Part shown: piece by piece, positions 11,707 to 34,881 of the stretch
Layout: each line of letters starts with the position of its first letter
Numbering within the stretch: position 1 is the first letter of the stretch
Source: an uncultured Bacteroidales bacterium
Lineage (GTDB): Bacteria > Bacteroidota > Bacteroidia > Bacteroidales > UBA932
Assembly: GCA_900318955.1 (NCBI GenBank)
Contig: ONMJ01000020.1
Coordinates: forward strand, 1-38,062
Length of the DNA: 38,062 nucleotides
Direction of reading: 5' to 3'
Position numbers and translations under genes: made by a program
The notes under the pieces: generated by a model
Told to the model about the DNA's origin: nothing
Database searches by the model: none
The model's input: only the letters and a program-made list of their open reading frames with translations

Positions 11707-11715
11707 AATACTAAG

Positions 11716-12518: not shown

Positions 12519-14078
12519 ATGAAAAGAATCTCTAAAGACTTGATAATCGCCTTTCTGGGGGCGAGTATGGCCGTTTTTGCCCTTTCTGGATGCAAAGGAG
12601 AGTCGTCAACTGTAGACAATGCTTATCTATCGAAGCTCTGCTCCGCGGCACCTTTCGATATGGAAGCTGTAACTCTTCCGTCCATTCCGGACAGGACGGT
12701 CAACCTCAAAGATTTCGGTGCGATTGGAGATGGAATTACCCTTTGCACAGATGCTTTTGCGGAGGCTGTAAAGTCCCTTTCAGACAAAGGAGGCGGACAT
12801 CTTTTGGTTCCTCCCGGCATCTGGTTTACCGGCCCTATAGAGCTTAAGAGCAACATCGATCTTCACCTTGATGAGAATGCTGTGATTCTTTTCTCTTCAG
12901 ACAGGAATCTTTATCCGATTATCAATACTGTTTTCGAAGGCTTGGATTGCCGTAGGTGTGAGTCTCCTATCCATGCGGAAGGAGCCAAGAATGTGTCAAT
13001 TACAGGAGGAGGAGTTATCGATGGCAATGGAGGCGACTGGAGAAGTGTAAAAAAATCGAAGATGAACGAGGCGCAGTGGAAGGCAAAGGTTGCAAGCGGA
13101 GGGATACTGAATGAAAAAGGGGACCGCTGGTATCCTGACGAAGGGTTTATCGAGGCGGAGAAGAACGCTGATATGAATGTCCCTACCGGGATTGAAACAG
13201 AGGAGCAGTGGGAGAGGATCAAGAGCTTCCTTCGCCCTGTAATGATCAGTTTCCGCGAGTGCAAGAATGTCCACTTGGAAGGAGTCACTTTCCAGAACTC
13301 TCCTTGCTGGAATATCCATCCTCTTATGTGTAAGAATGTAGTTATCAATAATATAACAGTCCGTAATCCGGAGTATTCCCAAAACGGAGACGGAATTGAT
13401 ATCGAATCCTGCGAGAATACGGTGCTGCTGAATTCGTCTTTCGACTGCGGAGATGACGGAATATGCATAAAATCAGGAAAGGACGAGGACGGAAGGAGAA
13501 GGGCAGCACCGTGCAAGAACCTTATTGTCAAGAATTGTACGGTGTTTCATGGGCACGGAGGTTTCGTTGTAGGTAGTGAGATGTCCGGCGGAGTAGAGAA
13601 TATGCAGGTAGAAGATTGCCGATTCCTCGGGACCGACGTCGGCCTTCGATTCAAAAGTAAAAGAGGCCGCGGCGGAGTAGTGAAGAATATCTATATCAAT
13701 AATATATACATGACAGACATTGCTACGGAGACCGTCCTTTTCGATCTGTTCTACGGCGGCGTTTCGGCTCTTGAGGCAATGGAAAAAGGTGGAGAGGCCG
13801 TTGTCGAGGCGATGCCTGTAGACGAGACGACTCCTCAGTTCAGGGACATCCATATCAGCAACGTTGTATGCAATGGAGCTGCCCGTGCAATGTATTTCAA
13901 TGGACTGCCGGAAAAGCCGGTAAGTAACGTGACCATCTCGGACTGCGTTATTAAGTCAAAGAAGGGTATAGTGATTTCCTATAGCGAAAATGTGACTCTT
14001 GATAACGTCAAGGTTCATCCTTCCGAAGGCGAAGAGCCGCTTACGGTGATTAATTCTGAAAATGTAGTGAGTAAATGA
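12519..14078 (+). CDS. GH28 polygalacturonase-type lipoprotein
   Basis: 519 residues. Signal peptide with lipobox (LSGC, cysteine about 25). The mature protein is a right-handed beta-helix pectinase that hydrolyses alpha-1,4 galacturonan links. It begins VNLKDFGAIGDGITLCTDAF. The family catalytic residues are visible: QNGDGIDIES (first Asp, near residue 293), CGDDGICIKSGKDEDG (Asp pair near 311), FHGHGGFVVGSE (His near 344) and VGLRFKSKRGRGG (Arg/Lys near 376). Bacteroidota members of this subgroup often act as exo-enzymes or on rhamnogalacturonan oligomers. It is the first gene of the four-gene unit, overlapping the next by ATGA. Confidence 0.93.
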   Translation: MKRISKDLIIAFLGASMAVFALSGCKGESSTVDNAYLSKLCSAAPFDMEAVTLPSIPDRTVNLKDFGAIGDGITLCTDAFAEAVKSLSDKGGGHLLVPPGIWFTGPIELKSNIDLHLDENAVILFSSDRNLYPIINTVFEGLDCRRCESPIHAEGAKNVSITGGGVIDGNGGDWRSVKKSKMNEAQWKAKVASGGILNEKGDRWYPDEGFIEAEKNADMNVPTGIETEEQWERIKSFLRPVMISFRECKNVHLEGVTFQNSPCWNIHPLMCKNVVINNITVRNPEYSQNGDGIDIESCENTVLLNSSFDCGDDGICIKSGKDEDGRRRAAPCKNLIVKNCTVFHGHGGFVVGSEMSGGVENMQVEDCRFLGTDVGLRFKSKRGRGGVVKNIYINNIYMTDIATETVLFDLFYGGVSALEAMEKGGEAVVEAMPVDETTPQFRDIHISNVVCNGAARAMYFNGLPEKPVSNVTISDCVIKSKKGIVISYSENVTLDNVKVHPSEGEEPLTVINSENVVSK

Positions 14079-15739
14079 GAAGGTTAGCTTTAATAGCAGC
14101 TTTTGCTGCGCTTTCGACTGTCCTGAGTTCTTTTACAATCCACCTTACAGGGGATTCCACTATGGCCGACAAGGACATAAAGGGCGGAACCAATCCGGAG
14201 AGAGGTTGGGGTATGATGTTCCCCAATTTCCTTGACGAAGGAGTAGATGTCGTCAATTATGCAAAAAACGGCCGAAGCACCAAATCTTTTATCGACGAGG
14301 GGCTCTGGGACAAGGTTCTGGGTAACCTCAAAGAAGGCGACTATGTCTTCATACAGTTCGGCCACAATGACTCAAAGCAGTCGGACTCAGTTCGTTATGC
14401 CGCTCCATGGGGCGCATATAAGGCCAATCTCGAGAAGTTCGTCCTTCAGACAAGGGAGAAAGGGGGAAAGCCGGTCCTTCTGACCCCGGTGGCCAGGAGA
14501 TGGTTCAAGGAGGGTGGCCTCGACCGCAATTGCCATGGGGACTATCCCATTGTAATGAAAAAGGTCGCCGAGGAGCTCAATGTCCCTCTTCTCGATATGA
14601 CGAGTGTGACTCTTGACTGGCTGGAAGGACTTGGAGACGAGGGCTCAAGGCCTTATTATATGATCTCGACAGGGAAGAGCGACAATACTCATACTGTTGC
14701 ACGCGGAGCGAGAAAACTTGCCGAGATGACCTGCACCGAGATAAGGAAGTCTCTTCCCGAGATTGCGGAGCATCTTATTCATTACGACATTGTGGTCGAT
14801 AAGAATGGATTCGGGGATTACTTCACCATCCAAGAGGCAATCAATGCCGTTCCGGACTATAGCCACGAGAAGATAACGACCATTCTCGTTCGCGAAGGAA
14901 TCTATAAGGAGATGGTTACGATTCCCCATAACAAATTCAGAATCAAGATTTCAGGTCAGGGTGCTGACAAGACTGTCTTGACTTACGACAAGTATGCAGA
15001 GAAGCTTTGGCCCGACTCGGATTTCAAGATGGGTACATCCGGAAGCGCAACCATTTACATGCATTCGAGCTATGTCACCATCGAGGATATGACTATTGAA
15101 AACAGCGCCGGAGAGGGAAAAGAAATAGGGCAGGCAGTAGCGGTTTTCACTGACGGCGACTTTATTTTCTTCCACCGTTGCCGCCTCATCGGCAATCAGG
15201 ACACCCTCTATACTTATGGACGTTACGGCAAGGATGGAGGTATCAAACGCAACTATTTCCTGGACTGCTATATTGAGGGTACAACCGATTTCATTTTCGG
15301 CCCAAGCATCGCCTATTTTGAGAATTGCACGCTCCATTCGAAGAAAAACAGCTATGTGACAGCGGCTTCCACTCTTAAAGGAGAAAAATATGGCTATGTG
15401 TTCAAAAAATGCCGTCTTACCGCAGCCGAAGGGATAGATAAATGCTACCTCGGTCGTCCCTGGGGCGCTTATGCAAAGACAGTTTTTATAGAGTGTGAGC
15501 TCGGTAACCATATTCTCCCGGAAGGATGGCACGATTGGGAGAAGCCGGGAAAGCCTGACACGAAGAAGAATTCCTATTATGCCGAGTACAAGAACTTCGG
15601 CCCCGGGGCTGCAGGAAAGAAGGAAAGGGTGAAATGGTCACGCCAACTAACGGCAAAACAGGCTGCAGAGTACACGTTTGAAAAAGTAATGTATCAGAAA
15701 AATGACGGTATCGTCTGGGATCCATTCAATAATAAATAG
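14075..15739 (+). CDS. Fusion of CE12 acetylesterase and CE8 pectin methylesterase
   Basis: 554 residues with an N-terminal signal peptide. Residues of about 22-225 are an SGNH hydrolase like rhamnogalacturonan acetylesterase (CE12): LTGDSTMADKD with the nucleophile Ser, YAKNGRSTKSF, FIQFGHNDSKQ, and the catalytic DNTH. From about residue 235 to the end is a CE8 beta-helix. It begins DKNGFGDYFTIQEAINAVPD and has GQAVAVFTDGDFIFFHRCRL, GNQDTLYTYG, TDFIFGPSIAYFENC and LGRPWGAYAKTVF, covering the family's Gln, Asp, Asp and Arg. One polypeptide should remove both acetyl and methyl esters, exposing polygalacturonate to GH28 and PL1. It overlaps the GH28 stop by four bases. Confidence 0.93.
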   Translation: MRRLALIAAFAALSTVLSSFTIHLTGDSTMADKDIKGGTNPERGWGMMFPNFLDEGVDVVNYAKNGRSTKSFIDEGLWDKVLGNLKEGDYVFIQFGHNDSKQSDSVRYAAPWGAYKANLEKFVLQTREKGGKPVLLTPVARRWFKEGGLDRNCHGDYPIVMKKVAEELNVPLLDMTSVTLDWLEGLGDEGSRPYYMISTGKSDNTHTVARGARKLAEMTCTEIRKSLPEIAEHLIHYDIVVDKNGFGDYFTIQEAINAVPDYSHEKITTILVREGIYKEMVTIPHNKFRIKISGQGADKTVLTYDKYAEKLWPDSDFKMGTSGSATIYMHSSYVTIEDMTIENSAGEGKEIGQAVAVFTDGDFIFFHRCRLIGNQDTLYTYGRYGKDGGIKRNYFLDCYIEGTTDFIFGPSIAYFENCTLHSKKNSYVTAASTLKGEKYGYVFKKCRLTAAEGIDKCYLGRPWGAYAKTVFIECELGNHILPEGWHDWEKPGKPDTKKNSYYAEYKNFGPGAAGKKERVKWSRQLTAKQAAEYTFEKVMYQKNDGIVWDPFNNK

Positions 15740-15740
15740 G

Positions 15741-16931
15741 ATGAAAAGAATACTGATAATAGCTCTAATTGCCCTTTCCGCCTGTACCCGGATCAATGAT
15801 TACCAGATGGTTCTTTCGGAGATTCAAAGGAACCCTGAAGCGACCTATCTGGACGGGATGGAGGGTAAGATGAAATGGAACTATACTACCGGACTCGAGC
15901 TATATGCTTTCCTGGACACGTATGCTTTCATGGCTCCTTATCTTGTTTCGAAACAAGATTCGACGATTCTTGATTATGTTGATGCCTGGTATGATGAAGT
16001 AATTGATTCTGAGGGACATATCGGAGCCAATTATAAGAAATCCAATTATAATCTCGACCATATTTGCCCGGCTCGTACTCTCTTTCTCCTCCAGGCGTAT
16101 CGTCCAAAGGAAAAATACGCGCTTGCGATTGAGGAGATCGCTTCCCAGTTGAAGACTCAGCCGAGGACGAAAGCCGGCGCATTTTGGCACAAAAAGGCCT
16201 ATCCCTATCAGGTCTGGCTCGACGGACTCTATATGGCAGAGCCTTTCTATGCCATGTGGGCGTCAACGCAGCCGGAACCGCAGAGAGATAGCCTTTTCTC
16301 CGACATTGCTCTCCAGTTCAAGGTTGCTGCAGAAAAAACCTACGATCCTTCAACGGGTCTTTATCGTCATGCATGGGATGAATCCCGGGAGATGTTCTGG
16401 TGCGATAAGGAGACTGGCCAGTCCGCCCATAGTTGGGGACGCGCTATGGGATGGTATGCAATGGCTCTCGTGGATGTTCTCGACTATTTTCCCGAGAATC
16501 ATCCTGAGAGGGCGGAACTACTTGATATTCTGAGGCATATACTCGAAACTCTTCCTAAATATGCAGATCCTGATACAGGAATGTGGTACCAGGTACTCGA
16601 CAGTCCGGGAAGGGAAGGAAATTACACGGAAGCGACTTGTTCGGCAATGTTCTCATATGTGTATCTCAAATCGGTGAGAAAAAGGTATTTTTCAGATAAA
16701 GAGTTTGCTTTAAAAACTTATGAAAACCTCTGCAAGACTTTTATCCGGGTTGAAAAAGGAGGGATGCTGACTCTTACCCGCTGTTGTGCTGTAGCCGGTC
16801 TCGGTGGCAAGGACAATCGCAGCGGCGACTATGATTATTATATTAACGAAAAAATCACAGATAATGACCCGAAGGGAATCGGCCCATTCATTTGGGCGGC
16901 CCGGCAATATGGTCTCCTTAATATGAAATGA
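15741..16931 (+). CDS. GH105 unsaturated galacturonyl/rhamnogalacturonyl hydrolase
   Basis: About 396 residues from ATG 15741; the longer frame from 15702 reads through the previous gene and is not used. Lipobox signal (MKRILIIALIALSAC). An (alpha/alpha)6 barrel that removes the unsaturated uronic acid left by pectate lyase. Family marks are NLDHICPARTLFLLQ, AYPYQVWLDGLYMAEPFYA with the catalytic Asp, HAWDESREMFW, SAHSWGRAMGWYAMALVD and EGNYTEATCSAMF. The product, 5-keto-4-deoxyuronate, is the substrate of KduI encoded downstream. It overlaps the next start by ATGA. Confidence 0.93.
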   Translation: MKRILIIALIALSACTRINDYQMVLSEIQRNPEATYLDGMEGKMKWNYTTGLELYAFLDTYAFMAPYLVSKQDSTILDYVDAWYDEVIDSEGHIGANYKKSNYNLDHICPARTLFLLQAYRPKEKYALAIEEIASQLKTQPRTKAGAFWHKKAYPYQVWLDGLYMAEPFYAMWASTQPEPQRDSLFSDIALQFKVAAEKTYDPSTGLYRHAWDESREMFWCDKETGQSAHSWGRAMGWYAMALVDVLDYFPENHPERAELLDILRHILETLPKYADPDTGMWYQVLDSPGREGNYTEATCSAMFSYVYLKSVRKRYFSDKEFALKTYENLCKTFIRVEKGGMLTLTRCCAVAGLGGKDNRSGDYDYYINEKITDNDPKGIGPFIWAARQYGLLNMK

Positions 16932-18890: not shown

Positions 18891-21800
18891 ATGAAAAGAT
18901 TCACTCAGAAAATCCTTCTTGTGTTGCTTTCTCTTGGGATGACGATAGCTCTTTCTGCACAGAATAAGGTTACCGGAGTAGTCACTGACGAAAACGGTGA
19001 ACCTCTTATGGGTGCAGGCGTCTTTGTCGAGGGAACGACTGTCGGAGTCGTTACAGGCCTTGACGGAGATTATGAAATCGTTCTTCCTGAAGGAGCGGCA
19101 AACTTGGTGTTCTCTTTTATCGGCATGGCTGACCAGACGATTCCCATTGGCGGACGCTCTGTCATTGATGTTCAGATGGGAGAAGACACTACCTTCCTCG
19201 ACGAAGTAGTTGTCGTGGGATATGCAACTGTTAAACGCCGCGACCTTCTCGGCTCTGTCGCTTCCGTCGGAAGCGAAAAGCTCGTAGAGCAGCCGGTAAC
19301 GACTGTAAGCCAGGCTCTTGCCGGTAAGATGGCCGGAGTCTCAGTCGTCACTACCGAAGGCGACCCTGATGCGGATATCAAGATCCGTGTCCGTGGCGGC
19401 GGTTCCATCACCCAGGACAGCTCTCCTCTTTACATTGTGGATGGCTTCCCGGTAGAATCAATCAACGATATTCCTTCATCCGAGATTCAGTCAATCGACG
19501 TCCTCAAGGATGCTTTCTCTACCGCCATCTACGGATCCAGAGGAGCGAACGGTGTTGTCATCGTGACCACTAAGAGCGCAGAAAAAGGCCAGAAAATTTC
19601 CGTTAAGTTCAATACTTATTACGGTCTCAAGACCATGGCCAACAAGAATGCTCTCGTCGCAATGGATCCCGACAACTTTGTCAAGTTCCAGTATGAGCTA
19701 GCTTCAATCCGTGGAAATGTCGACAGTAATTATGTTCCCTATTTCGGGACCTTCAATGATATCGACCTCTACAAGAATATCCCGATGAATGATTGGGTGG
19801 ATGCTGTTTTCGGAAGGACCGGCTCTACTTTCAATGCTGATTTCTCTATCTCTGGAAGCGGGGACACCCATAGCTGGACTTTCGGTTACGCCCATATGGG
19901 AGATGAGGCTATCATGGTGGGTTCCAATTATTTCCGTGACAACCTAAGCTTCAAGGGCAACTTCAAGTTGTCGGACAATACCAGTATTGATGCCAACATC
20001 CGTTATTCTCGTACCAATGTGCGCGGATCCGGTGCCAACGGTATCAATGATTCCGGTTCCAATGCCGGTAACGGACGTCTCAAGCACGCTATCTCATATG
20101 CTCCGATCCCGGTAACTCCCACTATTCAGGGCCTCGATGAAGAGCAGGATTTCGGAGACAATGCTCCGCCGCTCCTTTCTGTTGCCGACAATGATTCCCG
20201 CAGGTTACGCAGTTCATGGAACGCCAACGCTGCATTCAACTGGAAGATAGCTGACTTCGTCCGCCTCAAGATCGAAGGCGGTTTCGAGGATTTCCGCCAG
20301 ATGGATGATAGATTCTATGGAATCACTACTTATTATTCTCATCAGAATGCATATAAGGATGAGATTGTCAATTACCGGGATATGCCGGCCAATCAGCACA
20401 AAGAGCAGTTCCGTACGCGCTACCGCAATACGAATACTCTCAATTTCGATTTTGCCAATCTTATCCATAACGAAGATCATGCTGTTACTGCCCTTCTCGG
20501 AGAGGAAATGACTATTACCCAGACCAATCTCTATACAACGATGACTGACGGTTTCCCGACATTCTTCGATGCTCAGAAGGCTTGGTATTTCATGAGTTCC
20601 GGTGCATATGTCAACCAGAAGTCCAACTATTACAGCCCGGATGACAAGCTCCTTTCATTCTTCGGAAGAGTTAATTACGATTATCTCCACAGGTATTCGC
20701 TCGGTTTCACCCTCCGCGCCGATGGATCTTCCAAGTTCGCCAGAGGTCACCGCTGGGGATTCTTCCCTTCAGCCGCTGCGTCCTGGACCATATCGAACGA
20801 GCCTTGGATGAGGGGGGTAAACAATGTTGACCAGCTCAAACTCCGCTATAGCTTCGGTACCGCCGGTAACAACAATATCCCTCCGGGCCAGATTTTCAAG
20901 GATTACACAGGTTCTTCTGCTGCATGGCTCTCCATGGGCGGAACATACTATACCACCGGAGAAGACCTCAACAATCCCAACCTCACCTGGGAGACCACAT
21001 ACACTCATAATATCGGTGTAGACTTCAGCTTCTTCCAGACACGCCTCAGCGGTAGCCTCGAAGTCTATCAGAACGATATAAAGAACCTCCTCATCCACTT
21101 CCCGATCACCGGATCAGGATATAAGTACCAGTATCAGAATGTAGGTTCGACCCGTAACCGTGGTATCGAGCTCACTCTCAACCTCCCTTTGATCCAGAAA
21201 AAGGACTTCTCCCTCAATTTTGGCGGCAACATCGCCTACAATATCAACAGGGTTACCGACCTGGGAGGTCTTGAGTACATTACCCAGCAGTCCTATTGGG
21301 CTTCAACAGAAATCGGCGACGACTATATCGTACAGGTCGGCCAGCCTCTCGGAAACATGTACGGCTTTGTAAGCGACGGCTTCTACACAGTCGATGACTT
21401 CACATGGGATGGAACAAAGTGGAACCTCAATGATGGAGTGGCAGATTGCTCTTCTATCATCGGAACCGGTTATCTGCGTCCGGGAGCAATGAAACTCAAG
21501 AATGTTGACGGCTCCGCTGACAACAAAGTTACTCTTTCCGACCGTACAGTCATAGGCAATGCCTCTCCTGATTTCACCGGAGGATTCAACCTTAGTGCCT
21601 ATTTCAAGGGTTTCGACCTCAGCGCCAACTTCAACTATATGATTGGCAATCAGGTCTACAATGCCAATAAGATTGAGTTCACTTCTTCAAGAAAGTACTA
21701 CAACCGCAACCTCTTGAATATGATGAACGTTTCCGATCGCTGGACAAACATAGACTGGACTACCGGTGAGCTTATCAACGATCCCGACGCTCTCCGTTCC

Positions 21801-22604
21801 CTCAATTCGGGTGTCACCATGTGGTCTCCCGCTATAGGAAACGCCGTTTTCACAGACTGGGCTGTTGAGGATGCTTCTTTCCTCCGCCTCCAGAGCGCTA
21901 CTCTCGGTTATACTCTTCCCGAGTCGCTTACCGAAAAAGTCAATCTCACCCGCGTGCGCGCATATATAACAGGTACCAATCTCTTCTGCCTGACAAAATA
22001 TTCAGGCTATGATCCTGAGGTTGATACCCGCCGTGCAACTCCTCTTACACCGGGCGTCGATTATTCAGCTTATCCGAAATCTATCGGATTCGTCGTAGGT
22101 CTTAACATAGCCTTCGGCCGCCGCAGCTCAACTACAGCAGCCCCTGCCGCTACAAAGGCTGTAGCTGCTTCTGTTCCTTCTCTTGCTCCCGAGGTCCGCG
22201 AAGTGATCAAGGAAGTCGTCAAGGAAAAGGTTGTCGAGAAAGAAGTTGTCAAGGAAGTAAAGGTTCCTGCAGGAACTCTTGACGGTACTTATGAAGACGA
22301 TCTTCTCTTCCTCAAGGGTAAGTCTGAACTTCGTCCTGAAGAGGCCTTCAAGCTTGGTAGAATCGCTCAGATCCTGAAGGACAACCCCAGTGCCAAGATT
22401 ACCGTCACCGGTTATGCTGACTCCGGCACCGGTACCGCGGATGGCAATAAGACCCTCTCTGAGCAGCGTGCTGCAACTGTCGTCAGTATGCTGAAGAAAG
22501 CGGGCATTGCCGCTTCACGCATCTCTTCTGCTGCAACCGGTTCTGACAAGGATGTTTCCGCATCTCCTGAATCCAACCGCGTAGCCGTATGTATTGTTAA
22601 GTAA
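18891..22604 (+). CDS. SusC-like TonB-dependent transporter with a fused C-terminal OmpA domain
   Basis: 1237 residues. Signal peptide to about residue 23, then a carboxypeptidase-regulatory-like domain (VTGVVTDENGEPLMGAGVFV, about 25-100), the TonB-box/plug region (FLDEVVVVGYATVKRRDLLG; VDGFPVESINDIPSSEIQSI; YGSRGANGVVIVTTK), then the 22-strand barrel. The barrel ends normally at SIGFVVGLNIAF (Phe1075). It is then followed by about 160 extra residues: an Ala/Ser linker, a Val/Lys/Glu repeat (EVREVIKEVVKEKVVEKEVV) and an OmpA-type peptidoglycan-binding domain. That domain has ITVTGYAD (Asp1177) and NKTLSEQRAATVV (Arg1193), the two residues that bind diaminopimelate in OmpA, and ends SNRVAVCIVK. 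Import of pectin oligomers is inferred from its neighbours. The extra domain would anchor the transporter to the cell wall. Confidence 0.95.
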   Translation: MKRFTQKILLVLLSLGMTIALSAQNKVTGVVTDENGEPLMGAGVFVEGTTVGVVTGLDGDYEIVLPEGAANLVFSFIGMADQTIPIGGRSVIDVQMGEDTTFLDEVVVVGYATVKRRDLLGSVASVGSEKLVEQPVTTVSQALAGKMAGVSVVTTEGDPDADIKIRVRGGGSITQDSSPLYIVDGFPVESINDIPSSEIQSIDVLKDAFSTAIYGSRGANGVVIVTTKSAEKGQKISVKFNTYYGLKTMANKNALVAMDPDNFVKFQYELASIRGNVDSNYVPYFGTFNDIDLYKNIPMNDWVDAVFGRTGSTFNADFSISGSGDTHSWTFGYAHMGDEAIMVGSNYFRDNLSFKGNFKLSDNTSIDANIRYSRTNVRGSGANGINDSGSNAGNGRLKHAISYAPIPVTPTIQGLDEEQDFGDNAPPLLSVADNDSRRLRSSWNANAAFNWKIADFVRLKIEGGFEDFRQMDDRFYGITTYYSHQNAYKDEIVNYRDMPANQHKEQFRTRYRNTNTLNFDFANLIHNEDHAVTALLGEEMTITQTNLYTTMTDGFPTFFDAQKAWYFMSSGAYVNQKSNYYSPDDKLLSFFGRVNYDYLHRYSLGFTLRADGSSKFARGHRWGFFPSAAASWTISNEPWMRGVNNVDQLKLRYSFGTAGNNNIPPGQIFKDYTGSSAAWLSMGGTYYTTGEDLNNPNLTWETTYTHNIGVDFSFFQTRLSGSLEVYQNDIKNLLIHFPITGSGYKYQYQNVGSTRNRGIELTLNLPLIQKKDFSLNFGGNIAYNINRVTDLGGLEYITQQSYWASTEIGDDYIVQVGQPLGNMYGFVSDGFYTVDDFTWDGTKWNLNDGVADCSSIIGTGYLRPGAMKLKNVDGSADNKVTLSDRTVIGNASPDFTGGFNLSAYFKGFDLSANFNYMIGNQVYNANKIEFTSSRKYYNRNLLNMMNVSDRWTNIDWTTGELINDPDALRSLNSGVTMWSPAIGNAVFTDWAVEDASFLRLQSATLGYTLPESLTEKVNLTRVRAYITGTNLFCLTKYSGYDPEVDTRRATPLTPGVDYSAYPKSIGFVVGLNIAFGRRSSTTAAPAATKAVAASVPSLAPEVREVIKEVVKEKVVEKEVVKEVKVPAGTLDGTYEDDLLFLKGKSELRPEEAFKLGRIAQILKDNPSAKITVTGYADSGTGTADGNKTLSEQRAATVVSMLKKAGIAASRISSAATGSDKDVSASPESNRVAVCIVK

Positions 22605-22633: not shown

Positions 22634-24484
22634 ATGAAAAAGATATTGAAATATACGATTGCTGTTGTACTGATGGCGTTCTCAGCTGCTTCCTGCGAAA
22701 GTTTCCTGGATGTGGATTCAAAGTCCGCGTTCGACCCTAATGATGTTTTTTCAAGTTATGACCTTGCCGAGGGTTCGGTTTTAGGTATTGCGGAAGTTTT
22801 TGCCGAGACCAACTCATATAGGGGCCGTTTCCTTTCATGGTCAGGTCTGAACAGTGACATCGAATGGTACAACACATATAAGCCGACTGACGAGAAATAC
22901 CAGATTGCCGGCTACTCCCTGCTGCCGAATAACGGCCAGCTCAATCTCAGTAACGGGCCTTTCCCCAGCATGTACACGGGTATCGAGAGGGCAAATCTCA
23001 TTATTGAAAACCTCCGTAACCTTGAGGGGCTCAAGGATAAAGCCGACATGGCTTATCTTCTTGGAGAGGCTCTTACTCTCAGGGCGCTCCTCTATTATGA
23101 TGTCACTAAGACTTGGGGGGACGTTCCTGCCAGGTTCTCTTCAGTAGACGGCTCGACAATCTATGTGGCTAAATCGAGCCGCGACGTGATTTTCAAGCAG
23201 ATTCTCGCCGATCTCGACGAAGCTATCCCTTATCTTCCTTATCCGGGCGCTACGGCTTTGACCTCGCGTACGGACAGGATCAACAAGGTCTTTGCTGAAG
23301 GTCTTTATGCACGAATCGCTCTTCTTGCTTCCGGTTATGCAATCCGCCCTGACGACGGAATGATAGGAACCGGAGACCTCGGCACTGTTCGCCTCTCAAA
23401 CGATCCTGATCTTCAGAAAAGTGTCCTCTATCCCAAGGCTCTGGAGTATCTTCGCGATGCCATTCGCTCAAAGAGTGCTTCTCTTGAGGATTTCGAGACG
23501 ATGTGGAGAAATCAGAGCAATCTGAATAACCTTACTGCTGGCCCTGGATATGAGTCTCTCTATGTTATTCCGTTCTCTGCAGGCCGCGGCCGCTGGAATT
23601 ACACATTTGCAGTCCGTTCCGAGAAATCAAGTTACGCCGGTGGCGCAGCTGTCACCCGTGGCGGAGATGCCGGCCCGGTACCTACAATGTGGTTCAATTA
23701 TGACCCTGCCGACACCCGTCGAGACATTACCTGTGTCAACTGGAGATGGAACGCTGATGACGAGCAGGAGCTCGCAGGTATCCAGCGCTGGTACTTCGGT
23801 AAGTACCGTTTCGAATGGATGCTCGGAAATAACAAGTATGTCGGAGGTAACGATGATGGCGTCAAGCCGGTCGTGATGCGCTACGCCGATGTCCTTCTGA
23901 TGGCGGCAGAGATTGCCAATGAACTTGGCTACCTCACCGAGGCCAAGGAGTATTTCCTCCCCGTCCGCGAGAGAGCATTCAAGGGTAATGAAGAAATGGC
24001 CCAGGAGTATGTTGCCGCAATCACCGGCAAGGACGAAATGTTCAATGCCATTGTAGATGAGCGTGCCTTCGAATTCTGCGGCGAGATGCTTCGTAAGACC
24101 GACCTTATCCGCTGGAACCTCCTGAAGACCAAGATGGATGAGGCGATTGCCGATATGAAGGCACTGAGGAGCCTTTCCGGCAAGTATGCCAATGTAAACG
24201 GTCTTGATGGCGACGTCTATGTCCAGATGGACAATGACAAGGTCGTCGTCTACGGATTCTCCGGCGAGAATACTACTCCTAAGGGTGATTGGACCAAGAA
24301 GGCCGGTTACTTTACAAAGGTTCAGGACAGCAAGGGTGCAGACACCGGTCTTTATGATGACCTTGTGGAGCATGGCCTTTACAACGCAGATCCTATCCAG
24401 CACATGTTTTGGCCCATGTTTATTGACACTATGACTAACAGCCAGGGTGCCATCAAGAATGACTACGGCTACGACAGCATTTAA
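22634..24484 (+). CDS. SusD/RagB-family surface glycan-binding lipoprotein
   Basis: 616 residues. Lipobox signal (MAFSAASC, cysteine about 21) followed by ESFLDVDSKSAFDPNDVFSS, a typical SusD N-terminus. TPR-like helices include GIERANLIIENLRNLEG and LLGEALTLRALLYYDVTKTWGDVP. The C-terminal KPVVMRYADVLLMAAEIANE is the conserved SusD segment. It forms the lid of the SusC transporter encoded just upstream (29 bases between genes). The ligand is presumed to be pectic oligosaccharide. Confidence 0.95.
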   Translation: MKKILKYTIAVVLMAFSAASCESFLDVDSKSAFDPNDVFSSYDLAEGSVLGIAEVFAETNSYRGRFLSWSGLNSDIEWYNTYKPTDEKYQIAGYSLLPNNGQLNLSNGPFPSMYTGIERANLIIENLRNLEGLKDKADMAYLLGEALTLRALLYYDVTKTWGDVPARFSSVDGSTIYVAKSSRDVIFKQILADLDEAIPYLPYPGATALTSRTDRINKVFAEGLYARIALLASGYAIRPDDGMIGTGDLGTVRLSNDPDLQKSVLYPKALEYLRDAIRSKSASLEDFETMWRNQSNLNNLTAGPGYESLYVIPFSAGRGRWNYTFAVRSEKSSYAGGAAVTRGGDAGPVPTMWFNYDPADTRRDITCVNWRWNADDEQELAGIQRWYFGKYRFEWMLGNNKYVGGNDDGVKPVVMRYADVLLMAAEIANELGYLTEAKEYFLPVRERAFKGNEEMAQEYVAAITGKDEMFNAIVDERAFEFCGEMLRKTDLIRWNLLKTKMDEAIADMKALRSLSGKYANVNGLDGDVYVQMDNDKVVVYGFSGENTTPKGDWTKKAGYFTKVQDSKGADTGLYDDLVEHGLYNADPIQHMFWPMFIDTMTNSQGAIKNDYGYDSI

Positions 24485-24497
24485 TATCTGAAGAATT

Positions 24498-27400
24498 ATG
24501 AAATACAACAATATCATCAAATCGGTTCTCTTTGCAGTTCTCTCCGTAGGAGTCGCTGCAGGTTGCGCCAGGGAGGCGTTCGACGAGGTTACCGAAATGG
24601 ATCTTGCCCGCTGTCTGGAGCCCCAGAACCTCAATGTGAGGGTAAGTCCCGTTACCGGTGATGACGTCACCTTCCTATGGGATGTCAACAAAGATGCTGA
24701 CAGCTACAACCTTGTAGTCTACTCTGACGAGGCAATGACCAAGGAAGTACTCAATACTATCATCCCTACCGCAGAGGTCCCTTATACAGTCAAGATGAAG
24801 GCGGACCAGAAATACTGGTTCAAGGTCCAGGCTCTCTCAGAGAAGAGAGACGGCTCCCATTGGGCTACCTTTGGCGATTCATTCAAGACCTATGCGGTCA
24901 AGGACAACCTCTATCTCGAGGCTGTAAATCGCACAGATTCGTCAATCTCACTCACATGGGATACTTCAGTTTCCGACTACAAGGATGTAACCCATATTGA
25001 TTTTGTCCCTGTTGCAGGGGGAGATACGGTCACTTATACTCTTACCGACTCCGACATTTCCTCCGGTGCGGCGACTGTCCCCGGCCTTTCGGCTTCTACC
25101 GAATACCAGGTGACTCTCTTCTATATGAGCGCATCTCGCGGCAGTGTTGATGTATGGACTCGTGCCGCTCAGGGCAGCGCAACCCGTGTAAGCACTTCCG
25201 AGGCTCTTGCAGCTCTTATGGCCGCCGGTGATGAGATCTATCTTACCCTCGAAGGGTCTCCGTATTCAATCGGAAGCGTCAAGCCTGCAGGAAGCGTACG
25301 TCTTCTCGGCGAGATCGGTCCTGATGGAACAATGCCTGTAGTGACTACCAAGATAGAGCTTACCGATGCTCTTCCGGAGAATGCATCAATTTATGCTGAA
25401 GGCATTCTCTTTGACGGCGGCGGTGCTCAGTCCCGTATCGTCGAGCATACAGGAGGCGCTCTGAACCTTGCAAGCGTGAAGTTTGTCAACTGCGAGATTA
25501 CAAATTACGCGGCCGGATTCTTCTATGACAACATCGATGCTCTCATAAAGCTCGGAGAGTTGACCTTCGATTCCTGCAATATCCACGATATCCTCGGCAC
25601 CGGAGGTGACGCTGTCGATATCCGCAAGGCTACCGAAATCGGAGCAATCAAGTTTGTCAATAATACCATTGCAAACGGTATTCGTACATTCTTCCGTATC
25701 GATGCTTCTGACGCTATCAAGATCCAGTCAATTACTTTCGACAACAACACGGTCAAGAATATCGCTACTGTCAACGACGGCAACAACCGCGGTGTCTTTG
25801 CAATCCGCGTCGCTACGGAAATGAGCCTCAAGAAGAATCTCTTCCTCTATGAGGACGGTGGCAATGCAGCAACCCCGGACAAGGCTCAGCTCTTCCAGGA
25901 GAACAACAATACTGTCGTTCCTTCCCTGAGTGTTTCCGATAACTACAGCTTCGCACAGGGCTCTGCCTTCTTCAGCAAAGTCAGTGCAGCGGAAGCCGGT
26001 TTCAAGATCCTCGCAGACGATCCTTGCTACAACTCCAAGGGTAATTTCTTCCAGCTTGAGAATCAGGACCTCGTCTCAAAGAAGGTCGGTGCTTCACAGT
26101 GGTGGATTGCCTTCGTCGAAAAAGAGGAGGATCTGACCCAGAATGTCGTTCCCGCTCCTCATACATGGAATCTTCAGAATGCTACTCTCTTCGCAGGTGA
26201 TGTGAAGAAAGCAAAGGTTCGCGACGAAATCCTCTTTACCGCATCCGAGACTACTCCCATGAATGCCGACGGCGGTATCAACTTCCTATCGGCTTCTCCT
26301 CTTACCAAGAGGGGAGTCCCGACCGACGGGTATATCTCTTTCAAGGTCGCTTCTGCCGGATCAGTGGATATGGAAGTATCTGATCCTGAAGGGAAAGGCA
26401 GCAGTGTAGTGGTTGCTCTTATCGATGACAACGGATTTTCTGTAAAGGGCGGAGCAGTCGCTTCTGCAAGCACGCCGGGCGTCCAGAAAGTCGTGGTCAG
26501 CCCCGTTGCCGGAGAAGGTACTGTAATACTTTATAGCACCGGCCCTATCTCGATTGTCAAGCTTGCTTGGAGCGAAGATACAATCGGCGGTAACAAGGTT
26601 CTTGCTTCTCCGAAGCCGGTAGTCGAGCCTGTCACTCTTACTGAAGGTGATGAGACGGCTGTCACTGTGACATGGAATGCTATTCCCAATGCCGCAAGCT
26701 ATGTGGTTACATTCAATAAGAGGGTTGCCGATCCTCAGACAGAACTTAGCTACACTGTCGACGCCGAGACAATCGCCGGTCTTGATGCAGGCCTTTACAA
26801 TTTCACGGTCCATGCTCTTCCCGCAGACACCGATATCTATTACACGAAGTCTGAAATCGGAACTGCAGCGGTGGCTATCCAGCCTAAGGGTGGAGAAGAG
26901 GGAGAGGTTGTCAAGGTTGAATATACCTGGGACTTCTCTGATGCCGACTGGCAGGCTGAACTTGCTTCCAAGGGTGCAAAGAACGCAGATATTACCAATT
27001 GGGTATCAGAGCTGAACGGACTGACCTTTACCTCTACGGCAAAGAGTAAGTGGAATACAGCGACGATAAACGACGTTGTTTACTATTACATCCAGGCCGG
27101 AGGCAAGGGGAACAATGCTGACGGAACTCTTGACCGCACATTCACTTTCACAACCCCTGTCAAGGGAATCGTCAAGATAACCGCTTCCAATACCGGTGGC
27201 AGTGCAGCTACGGACGCCCGCCGTGTTGCTGTTCTAGGCAGTGACGGAACTACCCAGTACGGAGATACCCCGGCTCCGCCGTCCAACGCTCCTATAGTTT
27301 ATGAATTTGAGGTTCCTGCAGGTCTTGTGACCATTTATCCGGACACCAACGGTCTCAGATTCTATAAGATCGAGTTCTCCGGCGAAGGCGCTGTCACTCC

Positions 27401-27881
27401 TGTCAAGGAAGACTTCGTCTGGGATTTCTCCGATGCCGATTGGCAGGCTGAATTAGCGGCCAAGGGAGCAAAGAACGCCGACATCACCAATTGGGTATCA
27501 GAGCTGAACGGACTGACCTTCACCTCTACGGCAAAGAGCAAGTGGAACACCGCCACAATCAATGAAGTCGTATATTACTTCATTCAGGCCGGCGGAAAGG
27601 GCAATAACTCGGATGGTACACTCGACCGTACCTTCACTTTCACTACGACAACCTCCGGAACGGTCAGCATCACAGCGTCCAATACCGGCGGAAGTGCGGC
27701 GACGGATAACCGCCGTGTCGCAGTGCTTGGCAGCGACGGAGTTACCCAGTATGGAGATACCCCCGCGCCGCCTTCCACAGAGCCGAAAACTTATGAATTC
27801 GAAGTTCCTGCAGGTCTTGTGACAATTTATCCCGATACCAACGGTCTTCGTTTCTACAAAATAGAGTATCATAGTAAGTAA
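24498..27881 (+). CDS. Large surface lipoprotein with FnIII, beta-helix and duplicated C-terminal domains
   Basis: 1127 residues. Lipobox cysteine at 23. Two fibronectin-type III segments (about 38-225), a right-handed beta-helix-like region (about 235-480) with ladders such as VKFVNCEITNYAAGFFYDN, an unassigned beta-rich middle and a third FnIII (about 705-800). Two near-identical domains follow at about 811-961 and 975-1125, each starting WDFSDADWQAELA and ending GLRFYKIE. The FnIII plus helix layout resembles DUF4957/DUF5123 proteins that follow SusD in Bacteroidota pectin loci. The paired C-terminal domains may be carbohydrate-binding modules. No catalytic motif is recognised; a surface pectin-binding protein or an atypical lyase are the options. 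Confidence 0.88.
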   Translation: MKYNNIIKSVLFAVLSVGVAAGCAREAFDEVTEMDLARCLEPQNLNVRVSPVTGDDVTFLWDVNKDADSYNLVVYSDEAMTKEVLNTIIPTAEVPYTVKMKADQKYWFKVQALSEKRDGSHWATFGDSFKTYAVKDNLYLEAVNRTDSSISLTWDTSVSDYKDVTHIDFVPVAGGDTVTYTLTDSDISSGAATVPGLSASTEYQVTLFYMSASRGSVDVWTRAAQGSATRVSTSEALAALMAAGDEIYLTLEGSPYSIGSVKPAGSVRLLGEIGPDGTMPVVTTKIELTDALPENASIYAEGILFDGGGAQSRIVEHTGGALNLASVKFVNCEITNYAAGFFYDNIDALIKLGELTFDSCNIHDILGTGGDAVDIRKATEIGAIKFVNNTIANGIRTFFRIDASDAIKIQSITFDNNTVKNIATVNDGNNRGVFAIRVATEMSLKKNLFLYEDGGNAATPDKAQLFQENNNTVVPSLSVSDNYSFAQGSAFFSKVSAAEAGFKILADDPCYNSKGNFFQLENQDLVSKKVGASQWWIAFVEKEEDLTQNVVPAPHTWNLQNATLFAGDVKKAKVRDEILFTASETTPMNADGGINFLSASPLTKRGVPTDGYISFKVASAGSVDMEVSDPEGKGSSVVVALIDDNGFSVKGGAVASASTPGVQKVVVSPVAGEGTVILYSTGPISIVKLAWSEDTIGGNKVLASPKPVVEPVTLTEGDETAVTVTWNAIPNAASYVVTFNKRVADPQTELSYTVDAETIAGLDAGLYNFTVHALPADTDIYYTKSEIGTAAVAIQPKGGEEGEVVKVEYTWDFSDADWQAELASKGAKNADITNWVSELNGLTFTSTAKSKWNTATINDVVYYYIQAGGKGNNADGTLDRTFTFTTPVKGIVKITASNTGGSAATDARRVAVLGSDGTTQYGDTPAPPSNAPIVYEFEVPAGLVTIYPDTNGLRFYKIEFSGEGAVTPVKEDFVWDFSDADWQAELAAKGAKNADITNWVSELNGLTFTSTAKSKWNTATINEVVYYFIQAGGKGNNSDGTLDRTFTFTTTTSGTVSITASNTGGSAATDNRRVAVLGSDGVTQYGDTPAPPSTEPKTYEFEVPAGLVTIYPDTNGLRFYKIEYHSK

Positions 27882-27883: not shown

Positions 27884-28687
27884 ATGGCAAATCTTTTTTC
27901 TCTTGAAGGAAAGAACGCCTGGATCACTGGCGCATCTTACGGAATTGGTTTCAACATTGCGAAAGCATTTGTTGCAGCCGGTATCAAGAACATTATTTTC
28001 AACGACATAAATGAGGCGGCCCTCGAAAGAGGGCTCGCCAATTATGCCGAGGCGGGTATAACCAATGTGAAAGGTTATGTCTGTGACGTTACCGACGAGG
28101 TGGCTGTCAAAGCTCTCGTTGAAAAGATTCATGAGGAGGTCGGTCAGATTGATATCCTTGTGAATAATGCGGGTATAATCAAGCGTATCCCCATGCATGA
28201 AATGGCCCGTAAAGACTTTCAGGCTGTTATCGATGTCGACCTTGTAGCTCCGTATATTGTCTCCTCTGCAGTTCTTCCGGAGATGATGGAGCGCCGCGAA
28301 GGAAAGATTATCAACATCTGCTCGATGATGTCTGAGCTTGGCCGTGAGACCGTTTCGGCTTATGCTGCGGCCAAGGGTGGACTCAAGATGCTGACCCGCA
28401 ATATCTGCTCCGAGTACGGCGAGTACAATATCCAGTGCAACGGTATCGGCCCCGGGTACATCGCAACCCCTCAGACCGCTCCTCTTCGCGAGCGGCAGCC
28501 TGACGGCAGCCGTAATCCTTTCGACAGCTTTATCTGCGCCAAAACGCCGGCTGGCAGATGGCTCGATCCTTCAGAGCTCGGCGGCCCTGCAGTCTTCCTT
28601 GCTTCCCATGCGTCGGATGCAGTGAATGGTCACATACTTTATGTTGATGGCGGTATTCTCGCCTATATTGGAAAACAGCCTAAGTAG
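27884..28687 (+). CDS. kduD: 2-dehydro-3-deoxy-D-gluconate 5-dehydrogenase (SDR family)
   Basis: 267 residues, classical short-chain dehydrogenase: TGASYGIG cofactor loop near residue 16, NNAG, catalytic Ser in NICSMMSELG and YAAAK, then GPGYIATPQT. It reduces 2,5-diketo-3-deoxygluconate to 2-keto-3-deoxygluconate. Proteins of this type are also annotated gluconate 5-dehydrogenase; the kduI neighbour favours KduD. It starts two bases after the preceding stop. Confidence 0.88.
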   Translation: MANLFSLEGKNAWITGASYGIGFNIAKAFVAAGIKNIIFNDINEAALERGLANYAEAGITNVKGYVCDVTDEVAVKALVEKIHEEVGQIDILVNNAGIIKRIPMHEMARKDFQAVIDVDLVAPYIVSSAVLPEMMERREGKIINICSMMSELGRETVSAYAAAKGGLKMLTRNICSEYGEYNIQCNGIGPGYIATPQTAPLRERQPDGSRNPFDSFICAKTPAGRWLDPSELGGPAVFLASHASDAVNGHILYVDGGILAYIGKQPK

Positions 28688-28691
28688 AGTC

Positions 28692-29534
28692 ATGAGAATC
28701 AATTGCGAAGTTCGTTATCCGTCCCATCAGGACGATGCGAAGCATTACGACACCGCGAAGCTTCGTGAGCACTATCTCGTTAAGAATCTGATGGTTCCGG
28801 ACGAGATTAATATGGTCTACTCCATGTTTGACCGTATCATAGCAGGAGGCGCAGTTCCTGTCAAAGAGGAGCTTATCCTGACCCCGCCGGAGATTCTTCG
28901 CTCCGAATATTTCACCCAGCGCCGCGAGATAGGCATAATCAATGTCGGAGGTACTGGAGTTGTCAAAGTCGGAGATGAGGAGTATGAGATTCCTTTCAAA
29001 GAGGCTCTCTACATCGGCCGCGGCGACCGTCATGTATCTTTCCGTAGCCTCGATCCTGCGACCCCGGCCCACTTCTACTTCAATTCCGCTCTCGCCCATC
29101 GCGAGACGGCAGTCAAGCATGTGACCAAGAAAGATGCAGTGGTTATGCACTGCGGCTCCCTCGAAGAAAGTAACGAGCGTACAATCAATCGTTTACTCGT
29201 AAAGGAAGTAGTTCCTTGCTGCCAGCTTCAGATGGGGATGACAGAGCTTGCTCCGGGTAGCACCTGGAATACTATGCCTGCCCATACTCACGACCGCAGG
29301 ATGGAAGTCTACTTCTATTTCGAGCTCCCTGAGGATGCAGCGGTTTGCCATTTCATGGGTCAGCCTCAGGAGACACGTCATATATGGATGCACAATGAAG
29401 AGGCTGTCATTTCTCCTCAGTGGAGTATCCATTCCGCCTGTGCTACCAGAAACTATACTTTCATCTGGGGCATGTGCGGCGAGAATGACGACTATAACGA
29501 CATGGACTGGGTGGCGACAAAAGATCTCAAGTAG
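28692..29534 (+). CDS. kduI: 5-keto-4-deoxyuronate isomerase
   Basis: 280 residues from ATG 28692; the longer frame from 28626 lies inside kduD. A cupin enzyme that isomerises 4-deoxy-L-threo-5-hexosulose uronate, released by GH105, to 2,5-diketo-3-deoxygluconate. It starts MRINCEVRYPSHQDDAKHYD and shows MPAHTHDRRMEVYFYFEL with the zinc ligands His, His and Glu, then SIHSACATRNYTFIWGMCGEN. The length matches the family. It acts directly before KduD. Confidence 0.95.
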   Translation: MRINCEVRYPSHQDDAKHYDTAKLREHYLVKNLMVPDEINMVYSMFDRIIAGGAVPVKEELILTPPEILRSEYFTQRREIGIINVGGTGVVKVGDEEYEIPFKEALYIGRGDRHVSFRSLDPATPAHFYFNSALAHRETAVKHVTKKDAVVMHCGSLEESNERTINRLLVKEVVPCCQLQMGMTELAPGSTWNTMPAHTHDRRMEVYFYFELPEDAAVCHFMGQPQETRHIWMHNEEAVISPQWSIHSACATRNYTFIWGMCGENDDYNDMDWVATKDLK

Positions 29535-29536: not shown

Positions 29537-30376
29537 ATGAAGAAAAGGCTTATTTTTATCGTGCTTGCACTGGCTCTTGCAGTCTCCTGCGCCCCTAAAG
29601 AGTTCAGGGTGATGGCCCGCTACGTGCCGGAAAGAGCAGATGATTTCGTCTTTGAAAACAACCTCATTGCCGGACGCTTCTATGGTGAGGCCCTTGAGGG
29701 TAATCCTACCTCTCCTGGCATTGATGTATGGGTAAAGCTTCCAGGAAAGCTCGTTGCCAACGAGTGGTATGAGCATGCTACTTCCGGAGATGGCAATTAT
29801 TATCACCATGATCATGGCGGCAAAGACTGCTACAAAGTGGCAGTCAGTCTCGGTGGTGGTGCTTCGTCTCCGCTTGTCAATGGCAAAATAGCCTATCCTG
29901 CAACAAATTATCGTTCTTGGGAGATACTTTCCGAGAAGCCAGATGAAATAGTATTTGTCCTGAATTATCCCGAGTGGAGCGTAGACAGTCTCAAGGTCGC
30001 GCTCTCTAAGAAGGTAAGAGTAAAGCCGGATACTTATTTCTGCGAGGTTGAGGATACCTATACTTTTAATACTGAAGAGCTTACAGTCGCGGCTGGTCTT
30101 CTTAGGCATGATGTCGCCCAAGAGATTCTCGGAGATGGCGTTGTAGCTCTGTGGGAGCATGCCTCTGACCAGAGTGTGGAACCCGAAGATGGAATGATAG
30201 GTGTTGCCGTTGTCATGCCTGATTCGGATTCCGTCAAGGTAGTTGGAAAGCACGCCGTAGCTCTTAAGACCATAAAGAGCGGGGAGCCTGTCCGATATAA
30301 GTTCGGTTCCTGCTGGAGCAAGGGCGATATCAAAGAGGCTTCCGCTTGGTTTGATACTGTAAATAAGGCAAAATGA
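29537..30376 (+). CDS. DUF4861-type lipoprotein
   Basis: 279 residues with lipobox (LAVSC, cysteine about 19). The mature part is beta-rich and carries FENNLIAGRFYG, SPGIDVWVKL, GDGNYYHHDHGGKDCYKVAVSLGGG and FGSCWSKGDIKEASAWF, matching DUF4861 proteins that occur in Bacteroidota pectin and rhamnogalacturonan loci. Conserved Tyr-Tyr-His-His-Asp and other polar residues suggest an enzyme on unsaturated or acidic sugars, but no reaction is established to my knowledge. It lies between kduI and GH43, overlapping GH43 by ATGA. Confidence 0.82.
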   Translation: MKKRLIFIVLALALAVSCAPKEFRVMARYVPERADDFVFENNLIAGRFYGEALEGNPTSPGIDVWVKLPGKLVANEWYEHATSGDGNYYHHDHGGKDCYKVAVSLGGGASSPLVNGKIAYPATNYRSWEILSEKPDEIVFVLNYPEWSVDSLKVALSKKVRVKPDTYFCEVEDTYTFNTEELTVAAGLLRHDVAQEILGDGVVALWEHASDQSVEPEDGMIGVAVVMPDSDSVKVVGKHAVALKTIKSGEPVRYKFGSCWSKGDIKEASAWFDTVNKAK

Positions 30377-33477: not shown

Positions 33478-34881
33478 TCAGAATCCGAAATAACGGTCAG
33501 CGTTGTTGTAGCAGATGTCCTTGACCATCTGATGGAGCTGGGCCATCTCGCTGCGCGGAAGTTTGCCCTGCTCGATATCATCTCCGATAAGGTTGCAGAG
33601 TATGCGGCGGAAATACTCGTGGCGAGGATAGCTTAGGAAGCTGCGTGAGTCGGTCAGCATGCCGACGAAGCGGCTGAGAAGACCGAGGGTCGAGAGAGCA
33701 TTCATCTGCTTCCGCATACCGTCTTCCTGATCGAGGAACCACCAGCCGCTGCCGAGCTGCATCTTGCCGGGAACTGTGCCGTCGTTGAATGTGTAAGCCA
33801 TGGTTGCGAAAACCTCGTTGTCCTTCGGGTTGAGGTTGTAGAGGATAGTCTTTGTGAGTTTATCCTCGCTGGCGAGGCGGTCGAGGAATTTATGTCCTGC
33901 CGCGGCGGTATTGAGGTCGTGGATGGCGTCATAGCCTGTGTCGGGACCGAGGATGGCGAACATCCGGGTGTTGTTGTTTCGAATTGCGCCGATATGGAAT
34001 TGCTGAGCCCAGCCGCTTGCATGGTCCATAACTGCGAACTCATAGAGCATGGCGCTTCTGAATTTTGCTAGTTCGCTCTCATCGGGATAACGGCCTTCCA
34101 TCACCTTCTTGAAGATCGAATCCACCTCGCTCTCTGTGTAATCCTCAGCGTAGAAGTTCTCGAGGCCATGATCGGAGAGCTTGCTTCCCATTGAGGCAAA
34201 GAAATCATGACGTTTCTGAAGGGCGTCGATGAGGTCTGCAAAGCTTCGAATCTCTACTCCGGATACTTCAGAAAGCTTTTCTATGTATGCACGGTAAATT
34301 TTCGGGTTCTCGATGGCCATTGCCTTGTCAGGCCGCCATGCGGGGACAACCTTAGTTCCGAAGGGATTCTCGGCTATCTGTTTATGGACATGAAGATCGT
34401 CTACGGGGTCGTCAGTTGTGCAGACTACCTTGACATTGAATTTGCGGATAAGTCCCTGAGCGCGGAATTCTTCTTTCTGGAGCTTCTCGGTGCATTCGTC
34501 ATAAATTTCGCGGGCGGTCTCCGGTTTGAGGATTTTATGGACATCAAATGCCCTTGCAAGCTCGAGGTGGGTCCAGTGGTAGAGGGGGTTCCTCATGGTG
34601 TAGGGGACGGTAGCGGCCCATTTCTCGAATTTCTCATAAGGAGTGCGGTCGCCGGTGATATATTCCTCAGGAACGCCGTTTCCGCGCATTGCCCTCCATT
34701 TATAATGGTCTCCGCCGAGCCAAATCTCCGTAAGATCCCTGAACTTATAGTTGTCAGCAATCATCTGGGGGATAAGGTGGCAATGATAATCGATAATAGG
34801 CATATTCTCCGCGCTCTCATGGTAGAGTTCGCGTGCCGCATCGCTCTGCAGCATGAAGTCCTTTCCAATGTATTCTTCCAT
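33478..34881 (-). CDS. uxaC: Uronate isomerase (glucuronate/galacturonate isomerase)
   Basis: 467 residues, amidohydrolase superfamily. It converts D-galacturonate to D-tagaturonate and D-glucuronate to D-fructuronate. Typical segments are MPIIDYHCHLIPQMIADN with the metal-binding HxH, DLTEIWLGGDHYKWRAMRGNG, VVCTTDDPVDDL, GWAQQFHIGAIRNNNTRMF and GGWWFLDQEDGMRKQMNAL. Transcribed divergently from uxaB and sharing its operator. Confidence 0.96.
   Translation of the reverse strand: MEEYIGKDFMLQSDAARELYHESAENMPIIDYHCHLIPQMIADNYKFRDLTEIWLGGDHYKWRAMRGNGVPEEYITGDRTPYEKFEKWAATVPYTMRNPLYHWTHLELARAFDVHKILKPETAREIYDECTEKLQKEEFRAQGLIRKFNVKVVCTTDDPVDDLHVHKQIAENPFGTKVVPAWRPDKAMAIENPKIYRAYIEKLSEVSGVEIRSFADLIDALQKRHDFFASMGSKLSDHGLENFYAEDYTESEVDSIFKKVMEGRYPDESELAKFRSAMLYEFAVMDHASGWAQQFHIGAIRNNNTRMFAILGPDTGYDAIHDLNTAAAGHKFLDRLASEDKLTKTILYNLNPKDNEVFATMAYTFNDGTVPGKMQLGSGWWFLDQEDGMRKQMNALSTLGLLSRFVGMLTDSRSFLSYPRHEYFRRILCNLIGDDIEQGKLPRSEMAQLHQMVKDICYNNADRYFGF

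Follow-up and report, generated by a model that had tools for sequence, protein, structure and literature searches.

The window, by which we mean the whole 38,062-nucleotide stretch of DNA analysed here (contig C49, one of the 67 that make up a 98.9% complete draft genome of 2.4 Mb), encodes a complete SusC/RagA importer that is followed, in the same protein, by a linker and a full OmpA-type domain. The reading that we prefer, with a probability of roughly two in three, is that this SusC of a pectin locus would be anchored to peptidoglycan by its flexibly linked OmpA domain, and that the tail would be a module of single origin (type 1, see below) moved by recombination. Most likely, tails of this kind anchor a subset of the SusCD importers to peptidoglycan; the binding and its purpose are both deduced, from the evidence described below.

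The fused gene (18891..22604, plus strand) is a single uninterrupted ATG-to-TAA frame encoding 1237 amino acids, of which the first ones look, by eye, like a signal peptide. Pfam placed CarbopepD_reg_2 at residues 27-108, Plug at 116-222, the TonB barrel at 419-914 and OmpA (PF00691) at 1139-1228, and TIGR04056 matched residues 26-1075 with 781 bits (curated cut-off 368). In having this match, an N-terminal CarbopepD domain, a plug and a TonB-dependent barrel, a SusD gene directly 3' and a place in a carbohydrate locus, the window protein is like other SusC/RagA importers. It departs from them at its end: SusC proteins usually stop at the last barrel strand (this is not a curated criterion), whereas here 162 residues follow Phe1075 (codon 22113-22115). 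An earlier note, made from the sequence, had described a barrel finishing at Phe1075, some 160 further residues forming a Val/Lys/Glu linker and a complete OmpA-type domain, and the two key residues Asp1177 and Arg1193, and all of these were found on the DNA as described (Table 1). The linker begins with a Ser/Thr/Ala run, which is followed by EVREVIKEVVKEKVVEKEVVKEVKVP, and is of the Val/Lys/Glu type. PF00691 scored 60.5 bits (E 2.2e-16, gathering cut-off 27.2) in the full protein and 65.1 bits in the tail alone. The fusion junction is clear, because an unfused relative (L194, core 76% identical to the window SusC) stops where the window frame runs on: L194 ends at ...GFVAGLNLTF with the SusD start 13 nt on, whereas the window protein continues ...GFVVGLNIAF-GRRSS... 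The domain has in common with the OmpA-C/Pal domains (PF00691; OprF 5u1h, 3td4/3td5, 9uu2) the fold, the Asp, the Arg and the location C-terminal to an outer-membrane barrel. Such domains normally come after an 8-stranded barrel or a lipid anchor, not after a TonB-dependent importer; the small barrel of the OmpA porins is absent from the window protein, whose barrel is that of PF00593/TIGR04056.

Table 1. Positions of the parts of the fused gene and of the surrounding genes in the window
Feature	Position	Strand	Evidence
GH28 (polygalacturonase-type) enzyme	12519..14078	+	PF00295 5.3e-34
Pectinesterase with N-terminal GDSL esterase domain	14075..15739	+	PF01095 8.9e-66, PF13472 8.1e-15
GH88 enzyme	15702..16931	+	PF07470 2.5e-92
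SusC/RagA core (CarbopepD_reg_2, plug, TonB-dependent barrel; ends at Phe1075)	18891..22115	+	Pfam and NCBIfam TIGR04056
Linker, residues 1076-1138 (63 residues before the Pfam domain start)	22116..22304	+	sequence
OmpA-type domain, residues 1139-1237	22305..22601	+	PF00691, AlphaFold2 model, Foldseek
Asp1177 codon GAC, diaminopimelate-binding type Asp	22419..22421	+	invariant alignment column D114, 44 tails
Arg1193 codon CGT, diaminopimelate-binding type Arg	22467..22469	+	invariant alignment column R130, 44 tails
SusD partner lipoprotein	22634..24484	+	PF07980 2.8e-25, PF14322 4.6e-15
Large locus protein with DUF4957, fn3 and beta-helix matches	24498..27881	+	Pfam
KduI/IolB family protein	28626..29534	+	PF04962 1.2e-26
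GH43 enzyme	30373..31932	+	PF04616 8.4e-61
UxaC uronate isomerase	33478..34881	-	PF02614 1.2e-202

The surroundings of the fused SusC gene are a pectin locus (Table 1), in which genes of the mannitol-dehydrogenase and altronate-dehydratase types were also recognized by Pfam. The pectinesterase with the GDSL domain may strip two kinds of ester from pectin. A 624-aa protein encoded at 16928-18802 contains an fn3 domain, and Pfam matched no enzyme to it at E 1e-3; by eye it resembles a pectate-lyase-type protein. Ribosomal protein genes (L3, L2 and S3 by Pfam) are located at 7554-12207, immediately upstream of the locus.

Named genomes were scanned with a profile of the type-1 tail, and the best 80 of 100 confirmed places were kept; in all 80 the tail was on a SusC frame, a few of the frames ending at contig ends. 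Among 233 distinct near-full-length SusC proteins examined, 146 end 0-10 residues past the last strand, in line with the end that the note had called normal, 87 extend by more than 140 residues and none by 11-140; the proportion 87/233 is not usable as a frequency, because the searches enriched the set for fusions. The 87 fusions are distributed over 45 genomes. A ruminant host is stated in the names or titles of 18 of these (RGIG sets, red deer, reindeer), 14 more have RUG names, which we take to denote rumen origin, and the remaining 13 gave no source that was used. The tails were divided into type 1 (81 tails, 80 of them with at least 130 bits against the type-1 profile and L314 with 129.9) and type 2 (the remaining six, with coiled-coil-like linkers rich in Ala, Glu and Lys). 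Calculated as tail minus 104 residues, type-1 linkers are 47-75 residues long and type-2 linkers 49-90. In the window genome an OmpA domain ends three of the 26 SusC genes above the family cut-off; the two other fusions (L067:8943-12695 and L068:8686-12672, both on the minus strand) are of type 2, with coiled-coil-like linkers and a different kind of OmpA domain. The counts for the censused genomes (3/26, 3/18, 3/37, 2/16 and 3/34) indicate that the tail is optional, since just two or three SusC genes are fused in each. The matches listed for 41 genomes of the genus included 15 long OmpA-domain frames, in seven genomes; 14 of these frames are SusC fusions and one (L072, 930 aa) is cut by the contig.

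That a frameshift or an assembly error had joined two genes, an objection that the window being one contig of a draft genome invites, can practically be dismissed: the same one-frame architecture was found in 45 genomes, and a SusD-like gene, called with an iterated profile built from the window SusD, is next in at least 58 of the 83 fusions with a downstream ORF. This count is a lower bound, because ten of the 83 chosen ORFs lie antisense, and a divergent SusD seems to account for some of the misses.

Among the genomes drawn, SusC with a type-1 tail occurred only in the Bacteroidales family of the window. Ten of 299 genomes drawn from this family have the type-1 tail on SusC, and the 17 strong type-1 matches in these ten, belonging to two genera, comprise 16 SusC-length frames and one frame cut by its contig; the weaker matches listed in this draw are in frames that do not exceed 757 aa and for the most part have some 350-500. 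At E<=1e-28 the type-1 profile matched two of 393 genomes of the order (the window genome and G705, where the frame is an ordinary one of 390 aa) and one of 395 genomes of the phylum (the window genome itself), and no further genome with a type-1 tail on a SusC-length frame was present in these two draws. Both draws probe type-1 tails, and diverged, type-2-like tails on SusC could still exist there. The fusion as a general Bacteroidales trait was not supported when 15 genomes of 15 other families were checked: none of the eight listed OmpA-domain frames longer than 900 aa matched a SusC profile. Within the 299 family genomes, the window core had a match at E<=1e-200 in 57, and tail-length frames, of 1241 and 1230 aa, were present in just two of them, the window genome and G328. 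The frames of the others are 776-1101 aa long, and some share 74-76% identity with the window. A search of 72,556 plasmid records for the tail gave five matches, each below 60% identity and none covering 80% of the tail. Both component families are known, and their combination, a SusC-OmpA fusion, was not found described in the open literature searched (without preprints and most subscription journals). The fusion is recurrent within one family and, in the draws made, was not seen outside it, unlike the widespread and already described fusion that, according to the earlier note, would have refuted its observation.

A single origin of the type-1 tail is supported by phylogenetic comparison. When 32 of the 81 type-1 tails were sampled and combined with the six type-2 tails and 51 ordinary OmpA proteins, they formed one side of a branch with an SH-aLRT value of 99, as a clade separate from the ordinary proteins. 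The deeper order of this tree is unsure, because few columns are available and a number of long branches come together, and a single clade of type-1 and type-2 tails was not rejected (p-AU 0.40). The ordinary OmpA proteins of about 360-390 aa (e.g. L172, L173 and L175 of the window family, L192 of another) share the linker and the OmpA domain with the tails, and they are the strongest matches of the type-1 profile after the fusions. One of them, a 386-aa protein of another Bacteroidales family (L192:1498-2658, minus strand), has a similar Val/Glu/Lys linker, which indicates that this style of linker predates or parallels the fusion.

The barrels tell a different story from the tails. On a FastTree phylogeny of the 233 SusC cores the fused/unfused label changes at least 36 times (mean of shuffled labels 70.2, minimum 62), and still 25 times when only forks with support of at least 99 are kept. 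The orthologue group of the window SusC (38 rows, at least 58% identity) contains 10 fused and 28 unfused members intermingled, with type-1 tails, one type-2 tail (L080) and tail-less members side by side. A quick tree of this group has nine label changes, seven of which the starred branches make unavoidable; one clade of fused members was rejected (p-AU 2.5e-5, and 1.2e-7 for type 1 alone), and fusion is no more clustered in the group than expected by chance, as the shuffled mean was 9.1. Identities of core and domain are correlated with a Spearman coefficient of 0.34 over 3240 pairs. That the fused barrels merely kept an old tail is contradicted, because the tails do not follow the barrels.

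Comparison of closely related genes suggested how the tails could have moved. The proteins of L318 and L117 are 94% identical in their cores and 49% in their domains; at the DNA level the last 1200 nt of the core have an identity of.953, the linker.872, the domain.673 and the region that follows.919. A weaker pattern of domain swapping was seen in L316/L158 (.978,.959,.902 and.986 for core end, linker, domain and the region after) and in L084/L112 (.973,.846,.892 and.978). L148/L156, with corresponding values of.958,.873,.835 and.885, is an equivocal case. Tail exchange was not seen in L103/L104, L113/L110 and L149/L142, three of the seven closest fused pairs. The opposite combination was found in L109/L117, where cores of 23% identity carry tails with 92.8% identical DNA, and this points to transfer and not to slow change.

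Fused genes were also compared with unfused sisters. Between L095 and its unfused sister L197 identity is.906 over the core, falls to.802 in the last 400 nt of the core and to.80 in the first 100 nt past the stop, and is back to.96 in SusD. L095 and the fused L087 have an identity of about.82 in the core; it rises to.88 over the last 200 nt, is.84 for the tail and.88 for the 100 nt directly beyond the tail, and is.74-.82 in SusD. A 3' drop like that of L095/L197 was seen in L087/L201, and a clear tract was absent from L108/L202 and L107/L209, two of the four fused/unfused sister pairs. The drop was larger in six fused/unfused pairs than in 25 unfused pairs (p.003), the pairs being few and non-independent. 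Between orthologues the tract extends into the barrel end and the signal region of SusD. Exchange would involve either a tract running from the end of the barrel through the tail into the start of SusD, or one of the OmpA domain and part of the linker. The idea that tail and spacer form one fixed cassette up to the start codon of SusD was dropped, as the spacers differ between barrels. Paralogous tails within a genome were slightly more alike than others (DNA.723 vs.696, one of 500 shuffles being as high); concerted evolution inside genomes was nevertheless given no weight, because shared base composition or relatedness could explain these values.

Because nearly identical cores (94%) can bear domains of 49% identity and cores of 23% identity can bear tails with 93% identical DNA, the linker-plus-OmpA tail appears to be a recombining module, and the sequences support its being shared by numerous SusC genes within a single Bacteroidales family. 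SusC/SusD genes of Bacteroides fragilis are reported to undergo phase variation by a DNA invertase (work cited in PMC11868660). Recombination would alter SusC genes in both cases, but no pair of inverted repeats was found in the window between 18500 and 25000 (seed 11, minimum length 16), and the window genome has no second type-1 tail, its other six tail matches being 28-34% identical and located in frames of 233-1335 aa. With neither repeats nor spare tails, an invertible shufflon or silent tail cassettes were unsupported at the window locus and in its genome, and ordinary homologous recombination is the simplest account. The type-1 tail would have arisen once and then moved onto, off and between many SusC genes by this route.

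The structure predicted for the tail is consistent with a peptidoglycan-binding domain on a flexible tether. Modelled with AlphaFold2 (174 residues, 44 alignment rows), the window tail has a mean pLDDT of 69.5; the linker, with values below 50, is probably unstructured, whereas block means in the domain are about 82-94, with 73 at the C-terminus. The top PDB matches of this model in Foldseek are peptidoglycan-binding domains, among them OprF (5u1h, E 2.3e-9), 9uu2 (target TM 0.90, 1.5 Å) and the A. baumannii OmpA structures with diaminopimelate or peptidoglycan peptide (3td4/3td5). The best sequence match is 9uu2 (E 5.9e-23), with an identical Asp-to-Arg layout. An Asp-Arg spacing of 16, longer by one than that of E. 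coli OmpA, counts against the anchor, although 9uu2 shares this layout. In an alignment of 44 tails, 11 columns are invariant and include both residues, whose positions we take to be those of the diaminopimelate-binding pair of OmpA-type domains. By a motif test 86 of the 87 tails have kept both; in the exception, L080, the Asp is replaced by Thr.

In each of the 137 usable related pairs the OmpA domain had a dN/dS ratio below 1 (median 0.25; 0.1-0.35 in 107 pairs). The core had a median of 0.17, and the value of the domain exceeded that of the core in 106 of the 137 pairs. These ratios support purifying selection on the domain, with a constraint weaker than that on the core, and judged from sequence and model the tail looks functional. 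They also bear on the suggestion that the tail is simply tolerated, being spread by recombination and of little use to the importer. The weaker constraint on the domain would agree with such hitch-hiking, as would the scattered presence of tails in the orthologue group, which is like that of shuffled labels (see above). Yet a ratio below 1 in every pair, the retention of the key residues and the complete lack of partial tails (11-140 residues) among the 233 SusC proteins speak against it, and we consider it improbable.

Wall anchoring is the role that we favour for the tail. In a TonB-dependent barrel the last strand ends on the periplasmic side; the domain could therefore reach the wall on its linker, and from there it would hold the SusCD complex to the cell wall. 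To our knowledge, SusC importers are usually pictured as outer-membrane complexes without a wall anchor of their own. The earlier note had arrived at a wall tether for this one gene. Its reading of a SusC with a peptidoglycan-binding-type domain stands, the fusion being real, and a tether on the periplasmic side is what can best be inferred from topology and fold; the one-gene view was narrower than the finding, in which the tail is a module shared among many SusC genes of the family. Anchoring would benefit the cell by fixing chosen importers on the cell body, against the pull of TonB or against loss in vesicles; the tail may serve to withstand that pull, to keep importers from being shed in vesicles or to fix their position. 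ExbD has been reported, in a review, to be fixed to peptidoglycan (PMC11658791), and if this holds a tailed SusC would be held to the wall at both ends of the TonB machine.

The tail might instead staple the envelope in general, the fused SusC replacing or supplementing OmpA and the carrier importer being irrelevant. This would account for tails on many unrelated SusC types, and for the variety of the genes that follow SusD: of 44 such ORFs, 30 were scanned (the 14 left out being the window's own, antisense ones and near-copies), and they were varied, with four of GH18 type, seven BACON and two DUF4957. The same variety rules against a single substrate as the explanation. SusC proteins can be abundant, which would also suit a staple, but they are usually induced by substrate, a poor basis for a constant one, and the window genome keeps four OmpA-domain frames that are not of SusC length (C23, 445 aa; C64, 233; C19, 433; C36, 477). 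Stapling appears quite unlikely.

Sorting into vesicles is a further alternative, according to which the tail mainly decides whether a SusCD complex is kept on the cell or released in outer-membrane vesicles, and its gain and loss would tune private versus shared digestion. A tail that is optional, rapidly switched and present on some importers per genome would agree with such sorting, and vesicles are described as budding at sites where the outer membrane is no longer linked to peptidoglycan (PMC4604654). One parallel points in the opposite direction: a pectin-cleaving enzyme reported for Fibrobacter succinogenes carries an OmpA domain presumed to fix it to peptidoglycan, and this enzyme is enriched in vesicles (reported in PMC12098361). 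It is, like the window SusC, a rumen protein acting on plant polysaccharides, but an enzyme and not an importer. On balance, sorting as the main function seems unlikely.

We return to wall anchoring with the tail gained and lost by recombination. The fast turnover of tails argues against an essential anchor. The wider proposal, that a wall-anchor module of single origin is added, removed and exchanged by recombination in one Bacteroidales family with many members from ruminant guts, so that which importers are anchored would be an evolutionarily fast choice made locus by locus, is in our estimation an even bet. If true, it would mean that a periplasmic domain acts as a recombining module on importers. 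Orthologous pairs with and without the tail make up a natural set for testing the effect of a tether on TonB-driven uptake, mobility and vesicle sorting. To these the window orthologue with the type-2 tail and Thr in place of the Asp (L080:5954-9796, plus strand) can be added as a natural candidate for a non-binder.
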